From Acidobacteriota bacterium (GTDB taxonomy: Bacteria > Acidobacteriota > Terriglobia > Bryobacterales > Bryobacteraceae): a DNA stretch of 43,793 nucleotides. The translations under genes and the position numbers were made by a program. Of the stretch, positions 1 through 10,029 are shown piece after piece (within the stretch, counting starts at the first letter, position 1; each line of letters begins with the position of its first letter). Below the pieces are notes generated by a model. That model saw nothing but the letters and a program-made list of their open reading frames with translations, did not search any database and was not told where the DNA came from. The stretch lies in assembly GCA_016213755.1 (NCBI GenBank), contig JACQZT010000200.1, positions 66,710 through 110,502 of the forward strand, written 5' to 3'.

Positions 1-340
1 TTCGGACCAGCGCCTGGGTGTCCAGGTTCAGCACGTTCAGCGCGTTGGCGTCGTAACAGGTGACGTAGAGAAAGCGCCCGCTGCGCGACATCGCCGCCGC
101 GATCGGAAAAGTGCTGGTCCGAATGCTGGCCAGAAAGCGCCGCTGGGCGATCGAATAGATCTCGACGCGCTGCTGGGAGCTATTGACCAGGTACAGACGG
201 CTCCGCCCCTCGTCCAGGACGATGTCCGAGATGCCGCCGACCAGGTATCCGCCCGTTGGCGCCACGACGGAGCCAAACGTCGCCCCGAAGACCGCCGGAG
301 CCAAGCACAAAAATAGAGCCCACCACCGCGTATAACGCAT
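1..340 (-). CDS. YVTN/beta-propeller-like secreted protein, N-terminal part only (gene runs off the left edge)
   Basis: Reading the minus strand from ATG at 340: MRYTRWWALFLCLAPAVFGATFGSVVAPTGGYLVGGISDIVLDEGRSRLYLVNSSQQRVEIYSIAQRRFLASIRTSTFPIAAAMSRSGRFLYVTCYDANALNVLNLDTQALVR, open to the window edge. Signal peptide plus propeller-type repeats. Not in the ORF track because it is truncated. Confidence 0.75.
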   Translation of the reverse strand, partial: MRYTRWWALFLCLAPAVFGATFGSVVAPTGGYLVGGISDIVLDEGRSRLYLVNSSQQRVEIYSIAQRRFLASIRTSTFPIAAAMSRSGRFLYVTCYDANALNVLNLDTQALVR

Positions 341-2198: not shown

Positions 2199-3248
2199 TT
2201 ACGGGATGATGGCGGTCTTCATGTGCCCGTTGTGGCTCATGAGGTGGCGCATCACGTCCAGCAGGTTGGCCAGCGGCTCCTGCCGGTTCACGAAATCGCC
2301 GGCCGTGATGTGGCCCGCGCTGACCGCGTCGAGCGCCTTCTGGATGTGAGCCGGCGTGTGGTGAAAACTCGCCTTGCAGGTGATCTCGGAATAGTGCAGC
2401 AGCGAAGTGTCCAGCGACACGTGCGTGTCGTTGGGACAGCCGCCGAAGAAATTGACCGTGCCGCCGCGGCGCACCATGCGCACCGCCTGCTGCCAGGTCT
2501 CGGGCTTGCCGACCGCCTCGATGGCCACGTCCACGCCCCGGCCCCTGGTGCTGTCCCGCACGGAGCTGACCACGTCGTGGTGCGCATGCGTGGAGATCAC
2601 CACGTCGGCGCCCATCTTGCCCGCGCGCTCCAGTTGCGTTTTGCGCCTGCCGATGGCAATCACGCGCGCCCCGGCCACCTTGGCCAGCCGGACGAACATC
2701 AGCCCGATGGGGCCCAGGCCGATGACCACCAGGTCGTCGCCCGGACGCACGCCGGTCTCTTCCAGCCCGCGGATCACGCAAGCCAGCGGCTCGATGAGAG
2801 CCGCATCCTGGTAACTGAGGTGATCCGGAATCAGGTACGTGTTGCGCTCGACGATGCGGCCGGGAATGCGGATGAACTCGGCATAGGCGCCGTTGTTGAA
2901 CAGCAGGTCCTCGCAGAGATTCTCCGCGTCGCGGGTGCAATAGAAACACTCCCGGCAGGGCGCCGAATTAGCGGCCACGATGCGCTGGCCGGCGCGGAAC
3001 TTCCCCACGTCTTCGCCCGCGGCCACAATGTCGCCCGCCAATTCGTGTCCGAACAAGGCCGGCGGCACGATCATGCGGGCATGATAGCCGCGCCGAAAAA
3101 CCTTTACGTCGGTACCGCAAGTAAGCGCGGCGCGGACCCTGACCAACAGGTCCCCGCCACTGATCGTCGGTACGGCTACCGGCTCCACGCGCAACTGTTC
3201 CTTGCCGTAGAGCACGGCGGCCATCATCTGCGTGCTCACTGTGTCCAC
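2199..3248 (-). CDS. Zinc-dependent MDR alcohol/polyol dehydrogenase (copy 1 in the hopanoid operon)
   Basis: CGTDVK and GHELAGD catalytic-zinc motifs; CRECFYCTRDAENLC structural zinc (CX2CX2CX7C); Rossmann VVIGLGPIGLMFVRLAKVAGARVIAIGRR. The ORF-track start is GTG; ATGs at 3227/3224 (MMAAVLYG) are plausible alternatives. Confidence 0.9.
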   Translation of the reverse strand: MDTVSTQMMAAVLYGKEQLRVEPVAVPTISGGDLLVRVRAALTCGTDVKVFRRGYHARMIVPPALFGHELAGDIVAAGEDVGKFRAGQRIVAANSAPCRECFYCTRDAENLCEDLLFNNGAYAEFIRIPGRIVERNTYLIPDHLSYQDAALIEPLACVIRGLEETGVRPGDDLVVIGLGPIGLMFVRLAKVAGARVIAIGRRKTQLERAGKMGADVVISTHAHHDVVSSVRDSTRGRGVDVAIEAVGKPETWQQAVRMVRRGGTVNFFGGCPNDTHVSLDTSLLHYSEITCKASFHHTPAHIQKALDAVSAGHITAGDFVNRQEPLANLLDVMRHLMSHNGHMKTAIIP

Positions 3249-4294
3249 CTCTGTGGCAGAACCACTATTTTCAACGATTCGCCGTCCGGATGCAACGCCA
3301 ATTGGAAGCCTCGTTCAATCTCGTCCAGGGGCAGCCGGTGCGAAATCAGGTCGTCCACCGGCAGTTCGCCCGAAAAGACCAGCCGCGCCGACTCGGCCTG
3401 CAAGTCCACCGAAGCACTATAGCACCCAAATAGAGTCCGTTCGTCCTTGCAGACTGCCGCCCCCGAAACCTCCACCCGTTCCTGGTCCGAGGTTTGGGCA
3501 AACAGGAGGATCCGGCTGCCGGGGCGCGAGCAGGCCATGGCCTGATCGACGGCGGCCTGTGCCGAGGCGGCCACGATCACCAGGTCCGCCCCGCGTCCGC
3601 CGCTCCGGCGCTTGACTTCCCTGGCCAGATCCACTGCCCGCGGATCCCAGGCCGCCTCCGCGCCGAAGCGCAGCGCCAGTTCCCGCCGCTGGCGAATCAT
3701 GTCCGTGGCCAGCAGCCGCGCTCCGCTGCGCCGCGCCAGCATGGTGAACATCAGCCCGATCGGTCCCTGCCCCAGGATCACCACCGTCTCGCCGGGCTGA
3801 GGCGAGGCCAGCTCGACCGCCTTGTGACAGGTATTGATCGGCTCCACGAAGCAGGCGCGTTCAAACGACACCCCGGGCGGGATCTTTTCCACACCCCGCG
3901 GCACAATCCAGTCCATGATTCGGATGAATTGCGCAAACCCTCCACCGGCAGGCTCAAATCCCGCTGTAATCCCGACCCTCTTGTAAGTTTCGCACTGCGC
4001 GTAAAGTTTGCGCTGGCAATAGAAGCAGTCCAGACAGGGCACATGATGGAAGGCGGCCACGCGGTCTCCGGTCGCGAAGCCGTTTACGCCGCTTCCCACC
4101 GCCACCACTTCGCCCGCCGACTCGTGCCCGTAAATGCGCGGCGGGGGCAGCAAATCGTGCTCGATCTTCTTCAGATCCGTGTGGCAGATGCCGCAACTCT
4201 CCACCCGCACCAGCAGTTCGCCGGGGCCGATCCGGGGAGTAGGGACCTCCTCCACCACCACCGAGTTTTTACCTCTGTAAACCGCGCCCCGCAT
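3236..4294 (-). CDS. Zinc-dependent MDR alcohol/polyol dehydrogenase (copy 2 in the hopanoid operon)
   Basis: CGICHTDLKK, GHESAGEV, CLDCFYCQRKLYAQC (CX2CX2CX7C), VVILGQGPIGLMFTMLARRSGARLLATD. The ORF track gives a TTG start at 4345; the ATG at 4294 (MRGAVYRGKNS) better fits family N-termini and avoids overlapping hpnG. Confidence 0.9.
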   Translation of the reverse strand: MRGAVYRGKNSVVVEEVPTPRIGPGELLVRVESCGICHTDLKKIEHDLLPPPRIYGHESAGEVVAVGSGVNGFATGDRVAAFHHVPCLDCFYCQRKLYAQCETYKRVGITAGFEPAGGGFAQFIRIMDWIVPRGVEKIPPGVSFERACFVEPINTCHKAVELASPQPGETVVILGQGPIGLMFTMLARRSGARLLATDMIRQRRELALRFGAEAAWDPRAVDLAREVKRRSGGRGADLVIVAASAQAAVDQAMACSRPGSRILLFAQTSDQERVEVSGAAVCKDERTLFGCYSASVDLQAESARLVFSGELPVDDLISHRLPLDEIERGFQLALHPDGESLKIVVLPQRWTQ

Positions 4295-4307: not shown

Positions 4308-5021
4308 TCAAAATTGGTATTCAATGTTGGCAAGAAATTCTCCAAGCGCCTCCGAGGCCCGGCGACTCCGCCGATACAGCCCGATCAATTCCGGAAGACC
4401 GCGCCAGGGCCGATGCAGGGCAAGCGAGACAACCTTAGCGTACCGGAACCGTCCCTCCCCGTCCCGGGCGGCATTGAAGTCGATATGGAAGCCTTCCTGC
4501 GATCCGTCAGTCACGACTCGCACGCACGCAAAGGAAAGGCCGAGTCCCCGTGCTTCCCGCGCCACTCCGGCGGCCTCCATCTCGACCGCGACAGCGCCGG
4601 AGGCGCGCAGACGGCGCTTTTCACCGGCCGTCCGCACAAACCGGTCAAGGGAAATGATACACCCTTCCGCTGAGTACCGGTGGGCGAGCGGGCTGCACGT
4701 CTCGAACCTCTCCCCCGAATCGGATGCTTCCACCCCGCGAGCGGTCACAATGTCGCCCACCTTGAGCGCCGGGTCGAGGGCCCCGCAGTAGCCCACACTC
4801 ACAACTCCATCCAGTTTCTCGCGCTCCGCCGCGATTCTTCCCACCGCCGCCGCCAGGCACGGCCCGGGGCCGTTGGCCGCCATCACCAGCCGCTGCCCGC
4901 CTCCGTGCGCGGCGCGTGCAAAGCGCACCGGCCAGTCCAGGGGCTCCGCGTCCAGCCGGCGCGCCAGGCCCGCCAGTTCCATCGCCTCGGCCGCCACCAG
5001 CAACACCGTCGTCATCGGCAA
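4308..5021 (-). CDS. hpnG: Hopanoid-associated phosphorylase/nucleosidase (adenosylhopane nucleosidase)
   Basis: 237 aa MTA/SAH nucleosidase-like fold: GVVSVGYCGALDPALKVGDIV, VEMEAAGVAREARGLGLSFACVRVVTDGS; between hpnA and the MDR dehydrogenases. Confidence 0.88.
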   Translation of the reverse strand: MPMTTVLLVAAEAMELAGLARRLDAEPLDWPVRFARAAHGGGQRLVMAANGPGPCLAAAVGRIAAEREKLDGVVSVGYCGALDPALKVGDIVTARGVEASDSGERFETCSPLAHRYSAEGCIISLDRFVRTAGEKRRLRASGAVAVEMEAAGVAREARGLGLSFACVRVVTDGSQEGFHIDFNAARDGEGRFRYAKVVSLALHRPWRGLPELIGLYRRSRRASEALGEFLANIEYQF

Positions 5022-5992
5022 TACCCGCTGGCCCGAAACCAGTCCATGGCCCGCACCAGCGCGCCCTCCACCGGTTGCGGGTCGAAGCCCAATTCCCGCC
5101 GCGCCTTTTCGTGCGTGGCGAACATTTTCTTGCGCGCCATTCTCACCGCGTCGAGCGGGGCGCGCGGCTCACCGCCCGTCCACCTGGCCCAGGCGGTGCC
5201 GCACAGGCTGAAGCCGTAGGCCACCGCATAGGGGATCCGCATCGCCGGCGCCCGGCGTCCGGCCAGCCGCGCCAGGCGGCCGAGAATCTCCTCCAGAGTC
5301 AGATTCTCGCATCCCAGAATGTACCGTTCGCCGGCCCGGCCCCGCTCGGCGGCCTGGACGTGTCCGATCGCAGTATCCCGCACATCCACCAGGTTCAACC
5401 CCGTATCGACGAATGCCGGCATCGCGCCGCGCAGGAAGTCCAGGATGATCTTGCCCGTGGGCGTAGGTTTGACATCGTGGTCGCCCACCGGCGCGGTGGG
5501 GTTCACGATCACCACCGGCAGGCCGCGCGCGGCGAACTCCAGCGCCACGCGCTCGGCCAGAAACTTCGAGCGCTTGTAGGGGCCGGTCATCTCCGCCAGG
5601 GAAACCGGCTGGTCTTCGTCCCCCGCGCCCTGTTTGGGGATGCCGATGCAGCCCACCGTGCTGGTATAGACGATGCGCTCGGCGCCCGCGCGTTCGGCCG
5701 CCGCCAGCAGGTTGCGCGTCCCTTCCACGTTGGACTGGTACATTTCCTCCGGCCGCGGCGCCCACAGGCGGTAGTCCGCCGCCACGTGGAAGACGAGGCC
5801 GCATCCCTCCGCGGCGCGCTCGAGCGAGGCGGCGTCGCGCAGATCGCCGGAAACGGTTTCCACCCCTTCCAGCTCGCGCACGCGGCTGGCCGGCCGCACC
5901 AGCGCGCGCACGCGATGCCCGCGCGCCAGCAACTCGCGAGCCACATGCCAGCCCACGAACCCGCTGGCCCCGGTAACAAGCGTTGGCTTCAC
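5012..5992 (-). CDS. hpnA: Hopanoid-associated NAD-dependent epimerase/dehydratase
   Basis: 326 aa extended SDR: TGASGFVGWHVA, YTSTVGCIG, YKRSKFLAE, VNPTAPVGDHDVKPTPTGKIILDFLRG (typical of HpnA). Confidence 0.92.
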   Translation of the reverse strand: MKPTLVTGASGFVGWHVARELLARGHRVRALVRPASRVRELEGVETVSGDLRDAASLERAAEGCGLVFHVAADYRLWAPRPEEMYQSNVEGTRNLLAAAERAGAERIVYTSTVGCIGIPKQGAGDEDQPVSLAEMTGPYKRSKFLAERVALEFAARGLPVVIVNPTAPVGDHDVKPTPTGKIILDFLRGAMPAFVDTGLNLVDVRDTAIGHVQAAERGRAGERYILGCENLTLEEILGRLARLAGRRAPAMRIPYAVAYGFSLCGTAWARWTGGEPRAPLDAVRMARKKMFATHEKARRELGFDPQPVEGALVRAMDWFRASGYCR

Positions 5993-5996
5993 CGGG

Positions 5997-7112
5997 TTAT
6001 CGCAGCGCCCACGTCAGCAGCTTGATGCTGTCGCTGAATTTGGAGTTGATGCCCAGCGCCGCCGAAGGTTCGAAGCCGCAGTGCATCATGCAATGTTCGC
6101 AGCGCGGATCGCCGCCGCCGGGCCCGTAATCCTCCCACGGCGTCCGGGTCATGAACTCCTCGAAGGTTCGGTGATGGGCGTCGGTGATCATGTAGCAGGG
6201 GCCCTTCCAGCCCTTCACGTTGTAAGTCGGATTGCCCCACGCCGTGCAGGGCAATTCGCGCCGGCCCTGGAGAAAGTCGAAGAAGACCGGCGAGTTGTTC
6301 AGCGGAAAGTCCCGCTGCAAGGCGTCGATGTCCTTGAACTTCTCGCGCACGTCGTCGCGGGTCATGAAGATCTCGCGGTCGTCCACCGCCGAATAGCCGT
6401 AGGCCGGCGAGAGCATGTGGCCATCCACGCCCAGGCCGCGCAGGAACGTAAACAGTTCGCGGATCTCGCGCATGTCGGTCTCTTTGTAGACCGTGGTATT
6501 GGTGCACACCTTGAATCCCGCCCGCTTGGCCGCTCGGATGGCCTCCACCGCCTCGCGAAAGACGCCCTCGCGCTCGACGGCGATGTCGTGCGACTTCTCC
6601 ATTCCGTCGAGGTGCACATTCAAAAACAGGCGCGAGTCCGGGGTGAACTCGCCCAGCCGCTTGCGCAGCATCATCCCGTTGGTGCACAGGTAAATATGCT
6701 TGTTGCGATCGAGCAGCCGCGCCACCAGCGGGCCGATGCCGGGATACAGCAGCGGCTCGCCGCCGCAAATGGAGACGATCGGCGCGCCGCACTCGTCGGC
6801 CGCGCGCAGGCACTGCTCCGGGCTCAACCGCTCGCCGATGGTCGATTCGTACTCGCGAATGCGGCCGCAGCCGGTGCAGGTCAGGTTGCAGGTGTGCAGC
6901 GGCTCGAGCATCAGCACCAGCGGAAAGCGCTTGCGGATCATGGGGTGCGGCGGCCGCGCGTCGCTCCGCCCGGGGTGCGAATGCAGGATGCGAAACGGAT
7001 TCGCCGGAACGGCTTTAGCCGAAGCGTTCACCTGCCAGGCCGGCCGCGGCATCCACCGGTTCCGGGCAATATAACCGGCCATGCCGGCGGTCAGCGAAAA
7101 TGGAAATCTCAT
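5997..7112 (-). CDS. hpnH: Hopanoid radical SAM protein (adenosylhopane synthase)
   Basis: FPLVLMLEPLHTCNLTCTGCGRI radical SAM motif; SICGGEPLLYPGI; NVHLDGMEKSHD; C-terminal CEHCMMHCGFEPSAA. ATG at 7112 overlaps the shc stop by 4 bp. Embedded in the longer 5997..8075 ORF frame. Confidence 0.93.
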   Translation of the reverse strand: MRFPFSLTAGMAGYIARNRWMPRPAWQVNASAKAVPANPFRILHSHPGRSDARPPHPMIRKRFPLVLMLEPLHTCNLTCTGCGRIREYESTIGERLSPEQCLRAADECGAPIVSICGGEPLLYPGIGPLVARLLDRNKHIYLCTNGMMLRKRLGEFTPDSRLFLNVHLDGMEKSHDIAVEREGVFREAVEAIRAAKRAGFKVCTNTTVYKETDMREIRELFTFLRGLGVDGHMLSPAYGYSAVDDREIFMTRDDVREKFKDIDALQRDFPLNNSPVFFDFLQGRRELPCTAWGNPTYNVKGWKGPCYMITDAHHRTFEEFMTRTPWEDYGPGGGDPRCEHCMMHCGFEPSAALGINSKFSDSIKLLTWALR

Positions 7113-9037
7113 CCCCTCTCTCCTCCCGATCGCGTCTTCTGGAAATTCGCCAGCGCCAGCAGCGGGAACGAGTTCCGATAGGAGTGGTAGGTGAGGTAGA
7201 AAACTCCCGGGAAGCCGGTCCCGGTGGCAAGTTCCTCGCGCCAGGTTCCGCCGGCGCGCTGTGTCCCGACCAAGTACTCGACACCCTGGACCACGCTGCT
7301 GCTGGATACATCGCCCGAGGCCAGCAGTCCCAGGATGGCCCAGGCCGTCTGCGAGGCCGTGCTTTCGGCCGCCACGAACGTGCCGCTTTCGTAGCCGGCG
7401 CAACTCTCTCCCCATCCGCCATCGGCGTTCTGAATCGAACGCAGCCATTCGCCGGCGCGCAGGATGTGGGCTTCCCGGTCGTCGTGTCCGGCCGCGCGCA
7501 ACCCGCGCAAAGCCAGGAATGTCCCGTAGATGTAATTCACGCCCCAACGGCCGTACCAGCTCCCGTCCTGCTCCTGCGTTCGCACCAGGTACGCGGCGCC
7601 GCGCCGGATGGCCGCGTGGCCGGCCGGGACGCCCAGGGTGCACAGCGCCTCCATCACCCGGCCTGTAATGTCTGGGCAGGTTGGATCGAGCATGGCGTTG
7701 TGATCGGCAAATGGAACGCAGCTCAGCGGCTCGCAGTTGTTGTCCGCGTCGAAGGCGGCCCAGCCGCCGTCGCGCGACTGCATGTTCAGCAGCCACTCGA
7801 CGGCGCGCTGCTGGCAGGCCTGCTGCCGGGCGGAATCCGAGGCCTGGCCGTGGCGCAGCCCCAGCAGCACCTGGGCCGTGTCGTCGATATCGGGATAGAA
7901 CTCGTTGGCGAACTCGAAATACCAGCCGGAAGGCGCCAGGCGGGGGCGCTTCACGCTCCAGTCGCCCCGGTGGCGCACTTCCTTCGCCAGCAGCCAGTCG
8001 CCGGCCCGGCGCAGCGCCTCGCGCGGCGCGGCGCCCGCTTCGCCCAGCGCGTGCATCGCGATTCCGGTATCCCACACCGGCGAGAAGCAGGGCTGGAAAT
8101 GGAAATCGTCACCCTGGCCGGCGATAAGTCCGGCAAACTGCCGCTCGGCTTCGACCCGCACCGGATGGTCCGGCGCGTAGCCCAGCAGGTCCAGCGCCAT
8201 GATCGCGTACATCATGGGCGGGTAGATGGCGCCTAATCCGTCGCTTTGCCGGAAGCGCTCCAGCATCCACGCTTCGGCCGCGCGGATGGCCTTGCGGCGC
8301 AACCCCTTCCACCCGCGGCGCTCCCAGGACTTCAAGAAACGGTCGGCGGCCACGAAGGCGTTGCGCCAGGTGAACATTCCCGCGTCGCGCGCAAACGCAA
8401 GGCTCTGGCCGGGGAGGAAGATCTCCTGAAGTGTGAAGCCGTCCGGCACGGGGCGGCCGGGATTGAGCGCCTGAACAATGGCCAGCGGAATCACGATGGC
8501 GCGCGTCCACGACGACATCTCGTAAATGAAGTTGCCCGCCAGCATCATCTCCGGCGGCACGGAAGGGACGTGTTCGCGCGGGAACAGGTTGAACAGGCTG
8601 AGATTGATTTTGGTGTAGCTGTTGGCCGCCTGAATTCCGCCCAGGGAAAGGATCCGCTCCCGCAGGCGAGTCATGCGCGCATCGTCCGCGGCCACGCCGG
8701 CCACCTTCAGCGCGAAGTAGGCCTTCACCGAGGCGCTGATTTCGGCCGGCCCCCGGGGATAGATATTGAATCCGCCGTCCGGCAACTGGCGCGCCAGAAT
8801 CGAGCGCGCGGCGGAGCCGACGCGCTCGCGAGTGGGCGGGTTCCACTCCCCGCCCTGGGGCGGATGCAGCCACAACTCCAGCAGGATGCAGTCGGATTCC
8901 AGGGTCGTGTCGGCCGTCAGTTCCGCCCGCCAGTAGCCCTCCGGGAGCTGTCGCGACAGCAGCGCCTCGGAAGCCCGCCGCACGGCCCCCGAAACCGCGC
9001 TCAACAGCGCATCCTGAAGCTGGAGGCCTGGACTCAT
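7109..9037 (-). CDS. shc: Squalene-hopene cyclase
   Basis: 642 aa; [12 protein letters not shown] (DXDD); repeated QW-type motifs ([48 protein letters not shown]). Confidence 0.97.
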
Positions 9038-10029
9038 AACGGGGCGGCGATGTTCGTCAGCGCGGGTTCGCGCCGCGCCAACTCGGGCGGGAGCGAGAAC
9101 CGCACGTCCTCATCCTTGACCTGCACTTCCTCGAGTTCCGCAAAACCCTGCTCCTGAAGCGCCTCGATCAGTTCCTGCACCAAGTTTTCCGGCGCCGATG
9201 CGCCGGCTGTCACGGCCACGGTCGAGACTCCCTCCAGCCATTCGGGGCGCACTTCGCCGCAGTCGTCCAGCAGGTAGGCCGGCACGCCGATGCCCGCGCA
9301 AACTTCCACCAGGCGGCGCGAATTCGAACTGTTCCGCGAACCCACCACCAACAGGACGTCGGCCCTCGGCGCCACCGCTTTCACCGCTACCTGCCGGTTC
9401 TCGGTCGCGTAGCAGATGTCCTGGGCGGGCGGCGCCTGGATGGCCGGGAATCTCTCTTTCAGACGAGCCACGATGTCCCTGGTTTCATCCAGGCTCAGGG
9501 TGGTCTGAGTCAAATACACAACGCGGCTGGGGTCGGGAACCGTCAACTGATCCACCTCGCCCAGGTTGGACACCAGCACGGTGCTGTCCGGCGCTTCGCC
9601 CAGAGTGCCCACCACCTCGTCGTGGTCCTTGTGGCCGATCAGCACAATGCTGAAACCCAGGCGTGCAAAGCGCACGGCCTCCAGATGCACTTTGGTCACC
9701 AGCGGGCAGGTGGCGTCGATGACGTGCAGGCCCCTTTGCCGGGCCTCGACCCGCACCGCCGGCGAGACTCCGTGAGCGCTGAAAATGACGCGGGCGCCCT
9801 CGGGCGCCTCGCTCAGTTCCTCCACGAAGATCGCGCCCCGGGCGCGCAGGTCGTCCACCACGTGACGGTTGTGGACGATTTCCCTGCGCACATAGATCGG
9901 CGCGCCGTACAACTCCAGCGCAATCTGCACCACGTCGATGGCGCGCACCACGCCGGCGCAGAAACCGCGCGGAGTCAAGAGCAAGACCTTCTTCGTCCCA
10001 GCCGGAACACCGGCCCCGTTACGAGACAT
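9034..10029 (-). CDS. ispH: 4-hydroxy-3-methylbut-2-enyl diphosphate reductase
   Basis: 331 aa; [74 protein letters not shown]; 4-bp overlap with shc. Confidence 0.97.

Follow-up and report, generated by a model that had tools for sequence, protein, structure and literature searches.

In hopanoid biosynthesis HpnH makes adenosylhopane, from which HpnG then removes adenine to give ribosylhopane, and the open-chain aldehyde of ribosylhopane needs to be reduced to give bacteriohopanetetrol (BHT), a central biomarker lipid. Zinc MDR enzymes oxidise or reduce groups of the alcohol/aldehyde type via hydride transfer to or from NAD(P)H. A 2025 study of Alphaproteobacteria reported that the enzyme converting ribosylhopane into BHT has yet to be established, with no obvious new candidates near the hpn clusters of that group (PMC12583986), so that the lack of a firm assignment noted in the preliminary description of this DNA still held in 2025.

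The closest described systems are acidobacterial gene clusters (Sinninghe Damste et al. 2017, PMC5462960), i.e. cluster A (ug2-hpnC-hpnD-hpnE), in which ug2 encodes a Zn-binding alcohol dehydrogenase of ca. 350 amino acids, and cluster C (hpnA-hpnG-ug1). The text of that paper does not describe what ug1 encodes, and no function was given for either ug1 or ug2; HpnA was suggested for the step from ribosylhopane to BHT and is still a further candidate for it. The same study reported that cultured SD1 and SD3 Acidobacteria make tetrafunctionalised hopanoids (PMC5462960).

Gene order of the locus and the two MDR proteins

The window, i.e. the whole stretch of 43 793 nucleotides analysed here, derives from an acidobacterial assembly of 5.78 Mb whose host is a soil-type Acidobacterium, with Bryobacteraceae/Solibacteraceae records as its closest named relatives among the matches listed. 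Its minus strand carries the run ispH-shc-hpnH-hpnA-hpnG-MDR1-MDR2-hpnC-hpnD. Five of the encoded proteins scored above their NCBIfam cut-offs, namely IspH (9034–10029; NF002189, 476 bits), the squalene-hopene cyclase Shc (7109–9037; TIGR01507, 619 bits), the radical-SAM adenosylhopane synthase HpnH, of an N-terminally short type (5997–6941; TIGR03470, 406 bits, profile 23–316), HpnA, an SDR annotated as hopanoid-associated sugar epimerase (5012–5992; TIGR03466, 470 bits), and HpnC (1269–2183; TIGR03464, 352 bits). HpnD (364–1272; TIGR03465, 275.5 bits) fell slightly under its cut-off of 278.6 and the HpnG-like nucleosidase/phosphorylase (4308–5021; TIGR03468, 129 bits) far under its cut-off of 187, yet in both cases this family was the best match. 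The genes for two zinc MDR dehydrogenases, MDR1 (3236–4294) and MDR2 (2199–3248), lie between hpnG and hpnC, an identification that draws on Pfam domains, zinc ligands, structural models and synteny.

As first described, the two MDR genes sit within this run with gaps or overlaps of only a few bases. On the minus strand shc/ispH and hpnC/hpnD overlap by 4 nt each and hpnA/hpnG by 10 nt, while gaps of 4, 13 and 15 nt separate hpnH from hpnA, hpnG from MDR1 and MDR2 from hpnC respectively; the sole larger gap, of about 170 nt assuming an HpnH start at 6941, is that between shc and hpnH. MDR1 starts with an ATG at 4294, a TTG at 4345 opening the longest reading frame. For MDR2 either a GTG (2199–3248) or an ATG (2199–3227) is available, of which the ATG at 3227 is the probable start; it leaves a gap of 8 nt to MDR1, the GTG an overlap of 13 nt. 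At the other end of the run, hpnD is followed by a 1275-aa open reading frame, beta-propeller-like by eye, that is not hpnE (L009 11670–15497; window 1–340), and the hpnE of this genome sits on a separate contig (G000:C40).

Both MDRs are full-length with intact catalytic and structural zinc motifs. The ADH_N and ADH_zinc_N domains were above gathering score in each protein. MDR1 retains C37/H57/E58/E151 at the catalytic site and C87-C90-C93-C101 in the four-Cys structural lobe, and MDR2 retains C37/H61/E62/E146 and C91-C94-C97-C105; these ligands were unchanged throughout 97 MDR1 and 91 MDR2 sequences, except for one MDR2 row gapped at N-terminal positions. AlphaFold models displayed complete MDR folds (GroES-like plus Rossmann; pLDDT 92.6 for MDR1 and 87.8 for MDR2). 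Neither protein reached any NCBIfam equivalog cut-off: the best-scoring characterised families, L-threonine 3-dehydrogenase (TIGR00692) and scyllo-inosose 3-dehydrogenase IolM (NF041097), belong to the same zinc MDR superfamily, but the scores of ~155–172 bits compare with equivalog cut-offs of 380–458. The same fold is found in 4ej6, 4cpd (Thermus TADH), 1e3j (ketose reductase) and 2dfv (threonine dehydrogenase), PDB matches having a TM of about 0.84–0.90 at ~25–31% identity. None of these solved structures is hopanoid-acting by its entry title, and at such a distance a substrate cannot be transferred; the search with the modelled folds only confirms membership of the MDR family, not a substrate.

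Conservation of the pair and its limits

The order hpnA-hpnG-MDR1-MDR2-hpnC-hpnD is kept, contig ends aside, in the best 80 named relatives of MDR1, of which 78 have hpnG immediately before MDR1 and 74 have MDR2 immediately behind it; all exceptions to hpnG-MDR1-MDR2 among them are contig edges. Dozens of genomes share this gene order at 48–79% protein identity, so the arrangement is more than chance, and it spans five families of the phylum sample described below, which bears out the placement of both MDRs as conserved members of acidobacterial hopanoid operons. No hpnH lies between shc and hpnA in about 24 of these 80 loci, and hpnH was found elsewhere in 19 of the 24 Bryobacterales-type genomes concerned. 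The in-operon HpnH of the window (5997–6941) is more divergent as well as N-terminally short (profile 23–316, ~408 bits), and many Bryobacterales-type genomes without an in-operon hpnH have a full-length HpnH elsewhere (~508–557 bits; L235–L254). Acidobacterial hopanoid operons were also seen in records titled 'Bordetella parapertussis' (L233, CALQCC020000014.1) and 'Acidimicrobiia' (L168, VFZE01000054.1), titles that look wrong.

In a sample of 199 genomes of the phylum (match cut-off E ≤ 1e-70 for MDR1 and MDR2), MDR1 was detected in 29, MDR2 in 36 and HpnH in 50. HpnH was present in 28 of the 29 MDR1 genomes; the exception (G113, 93% complete) has shc, hpnA, hpnD and ispH beside the MDR pair and probably represents a gapped hopanoid genome. 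MDR1 hence occurs in 28 of 50 HpnH-positive versus one of 149 HpnH-negative genomes, a comparison by Fisher test that is uncorrected for shared ancestry. It is accompanied by MDR2 in every case (29/29), in tandem in 17, the other 12, from the window's class, being split, with MDR1 behind hpnG and MDR2 elsewhere: directly before hpnC in all three split loci read, and, for eight of the remaining nine, no more than a few kb from hpnE (G103 has no hpnE match). MDR1 comes after hpnG in 21 genomes and after hpnA in the seven of family f28, and only in G066 is the pair apart from all hpn genes. The adjacency of hpnG and MDR1 is kept in G130 though hpnA and hpnH are ~50 kb off, and hpnA-hpnG-MDR1-MDR2 is intact in G084 with hpnH relocated. 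Orthologues of MDR1 thus do not lie mostly outside hopanoid loci, the outcome that the preliminary description had held to speak against its proposal: each of the 29 sits in a genome that has hopanoid genes, and 28 are beside hpnG or hpnA.

Several loci of the sample have further neighbours. In G179 the gene after MDR1 encodes a YegS-type lipid kinase (L114 10158–11078), and in G130 a gene for a LacI/RbsR-type regulator stands ahead of hpnG-MDR1 (L117 7116–8228). Beside shc-hpnH-hpnG, G059 (L127, 1425–7586) carries genes for HMG-CoA reductase, mevalonate kinase, a type 2 IPP isomerase, an archaeal-type isopentenyl phosphate kinase (NF040647, above cut-off) and a squalene-synthase-like protein, suggesting a mevalonate route beside hopanoid genes.

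Other Acidobacteriota possess two adjacent MDR genes, pairA and pairB, that resemble MDR1-MDR2 in arrangement but are not beside hpn genes and share only ~31–35% (A) and ~41–43% (B) identity. In a tree with several long branches and unsure deeper nodes, MDR2 rows and pairB formed one 20-row clade (100/100) with pairB sister to MDR2, and one pairA row joined MDR1 (98/97). MDR2 relatives also occur in genomes without HpnH and HpnG (G132 and G078). That of G132, a genome which lacks HpnA too, shows 51% identity and is divergent from acireductone dioxygenase and HAD hydrolase-like genes of methionine-salvage type (L119 9418–11409), with a class-II-aldolase-like stretch ahead of these; a link of MDR2 to methionine salvage through such mtn-type genes was dropped, as this arrangement is not conserved in the related loci L273–L275. 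The best non-acidobacterial (plasmid) relative of MDR2 was from Rhodococcus opacus (46%), in a polyol-type operon with a DeoR regulator, an FGGY kinase and a class II aldolase, and weaker relatives sit in sugar operons.

The distribution of the pair has clear limits. Twenty-two of the 50 HpnH-positive genomes lack MDR1, 17 of them also lacking an MDR2-family match at E ≤ 1e-70, and most have HpnG and HpnA. G096, G123 and G165, which, judged by their two-replicon genomes, would be Chloracidobacterium, were without MDR1 and had just a pairB relative (in G123 40.9% identical to MDR2); Chloracidobacterium thermophilum is a BHT maker (PMC5462960). Conversely, hpnA-MDR1-MDR2 is retained in the seven f28 genomes although they have no canonical HpnG, their nearest HpnG-profile matches scoring equally well or better as futalosine/MTA nucleosidases. 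G007 lacks hpnA, hpnG, hpnE and both MDRs, a pattern in which loss and assembly gap are not separable. A plasmid search with MDR1 gave no match at 1e-50, and no MDR homologue (E < 1e-4) was detected in six non-acidobacterial hopanoid loci (two of Streptomyces and one each of Roseomonas, Burkholderia, Cupriavidus and Azospirillum), covered, as far as the records reached, for ~9–14 kb in both directions from hpnH. With MDR genes missing from these six loci and MDR1 from Chloracidobacterium, the pair does not hold up as a general BHT enzyme. Because many hopanoid producers lack both MDR genes, another enzyme does the reduction elsewhere, and could do so here; a reductase role is plausible as a lineage-restricted one, as far as tested in part of one phylum.

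Cofactor signatures and candidate roles

An acidic residue closing the second Rossmann strand usually marks NAD(H) use, and a small residue with Arg/Lys and then Arg behind it NADP(H) use. When this site was compared across 97 MDR1 and 91 MDR2 sequences, position 198 of MDR1 was acidic in all 97 (D in 93, E in 4; Asp198 in the window). The MDR2 rows had G193 in 79/91, R/K194 in 87/91 and R195 in 87/91, with Asp at 193 in one, and the window MDR2 reads Gly-Arg-Arg after the Rossmann motif. We predict from these residues that MDR1 is NAD(H)-type and MDR2 NADP(H)-type, a split which points to one enzyme poised for oxidation and one poised for reduction. The cell-free activity of M. organophilum (Bodlenner, 2015) was reportedly NADPH-dependent.

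We tentatively propose that the pair acts on the hopanoid side chain, MDR2 with NADPH reducing ribosylhopane and MDR1 with NAD carrying out another step. The two would form a dedicated, soluble pair of zinc alcohol/polyol dehydrogenases for the sugar-derived side chain, working downstream of HpnH and, in genomes that have it, of HpnG. MDR2, using NADP(H), would reduce the open-chain aldehyde of ribosylhopane to BHT, and MDR1, using NAD(H), would catalyse a further reaction of that side chain, probably an oxidation. Substrate, direction and step order are what we infer for the two enzymes from their observed operon membership, co-conservation, intact zinc sites, opposite cofactor signatures and MDR fold. 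The preliminary description had put forward an MDR directly behind hpnG as the reductase; its argument that polyol/sugar-type chemistry suits the step stands, but the predicted NAD-type site of MDR1 and NADP-type site of MDR2 speak against that choice of gene. MDR2 appears a slightly better candidate for ribosylhopane reduction than the hpnG-adjacent MDR1 because an NADP-type site suits a biosynthetic reduction, an assignment that is weak because position favours MDR1 and cofactor MDR2.

The reduction itself must occur in the cultured SD1/SD3 Acidobacteria, because these make tetrafunctionalised hopanoids and most MDR genomes, that of the window included, lack an HpnO-type aminotransferase at the cut-off used. 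Complementarity between HpnO and the MDRs was uninformative, HpnO-like matches being rare in both groups. A role in forming the cyclitol ether (HpnI/K/J) was rejected since HpnJ does not track the pair: f28, G066 and the window genome have the pair but no HpnJ (for the window genome, no true member of the family), and f32 has HpnJ without MDR1.

It is also possible, if doubtful, that the pair introduces a lineage-specific change of the side chain, finished or nascent, the BHT reductase being encoded elsewhere; MDR1 might, for example, oxidise one hydroxyl with NAD+ and MDR2 re-reduce it with NADPH to leave a stereoisomer or keto derivative. Such a change would be in keeping with the contrasting cofactor signatures of two co-conserved tandem genes, with MDR1 never being found without MDR2, with the absence of the pair from other hopanoid loci and with the BHT stereoisomers known in other bacteria (PMC12583986), but the literature consulted has no record of unusual BHT stereochemistry in Acidobacteria.

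We consider it unlikely that MDR1 is instead an NADH-using ribosylhopane reductase, with MDR2 serving a different step related to its hpnC/hpnD surroundings. The adjacency of hpnG and MDR1 (21/29 phylum genomes and 78 of the best 80 named loci, including G130 with its dispersed hpn genes), the 12 split genomes that keep MDR1 with hpnG and MDR2 apart (next to hpnC in all three loci read) and the stricter hopanoid association of MDR1 all argue for this, whereas D/E198 in 97/97 MDR1 sequences is an NAD-type feature less typical of biosynthetic reduction, and Chloracidobacterium makes BHT (PMC5462960) without an MDR1 orthologue. Somewhat less likely again is a redox relay, in which oxidation by MDR1 with NAD+ would be followed by reduction by MDR2 with NADPH to give BHT, an epimer or a keto form; this would be a two-enzyme BHT route unlike that of Proteobacteria and Streptomyces.

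That general sugar/polyol dehydrogenases were captured beside hopanoid genes without a pathway role seems improbable: MDR2 relatives, single or paired, do occur in non-hopanoid genomes and the nearest outside relatives sit in sugar operons, but the tight synteny across five families and through rearrangements and the co-occurrence with HpnH argue against it. Service in squalene formation with HpnC/D/E rather than on the side chain, which had been suggested for the second MDR, is very improbable even though hpnC or hpnD comes right after MDR2 in most genomes and ug2 is linked to hpnCDE (PMC5462960), since f28/g40 keep MDR1-MDR2 without HpnE and, in most f28 genomes, without detected HpnC, f2 and f1 have HpnE together with MDR2 and hence no replacement pattern, and MDR1 tracks hpnA/hpnG.

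Comparison with the described acidobacterial clusters

Should one of the MDRs be the reductase, as we tentatively propose for MDR2, a gap in the pathway would be closed, and the patchy distribution would imply more than one evolutionary origin of BHT formation. A conserved, operon-linked pair with predicted cofactors also provides two named genes for direct testing.

This is not the first sighting of these genes, which were catalogued without function as ug2 and, if our match is correct, ug1 (PMC5462960). MDR2, a Zn-alcohol dehydrogenase of ~350 amino acids encoded before hpnC, fits ug2, and MDR1, matched by its position after hpnA-hpnG alone, would be ug1. The published statements on ug2 are mixed, the gene being given as absent from the SD3 environmental cluster A yet present in all SD1 and SD3 Acidobacteria (PMC5462960); the window and its relatives carry it directly before hpnC. 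The description of ug1 and ug2 reported no cofactor split (PMC5462960), whereas the MDR1 and MDR2 sequences analysed here carry opposite signatures, and the cofactor split of this ug1/ug2-type pair is new here.
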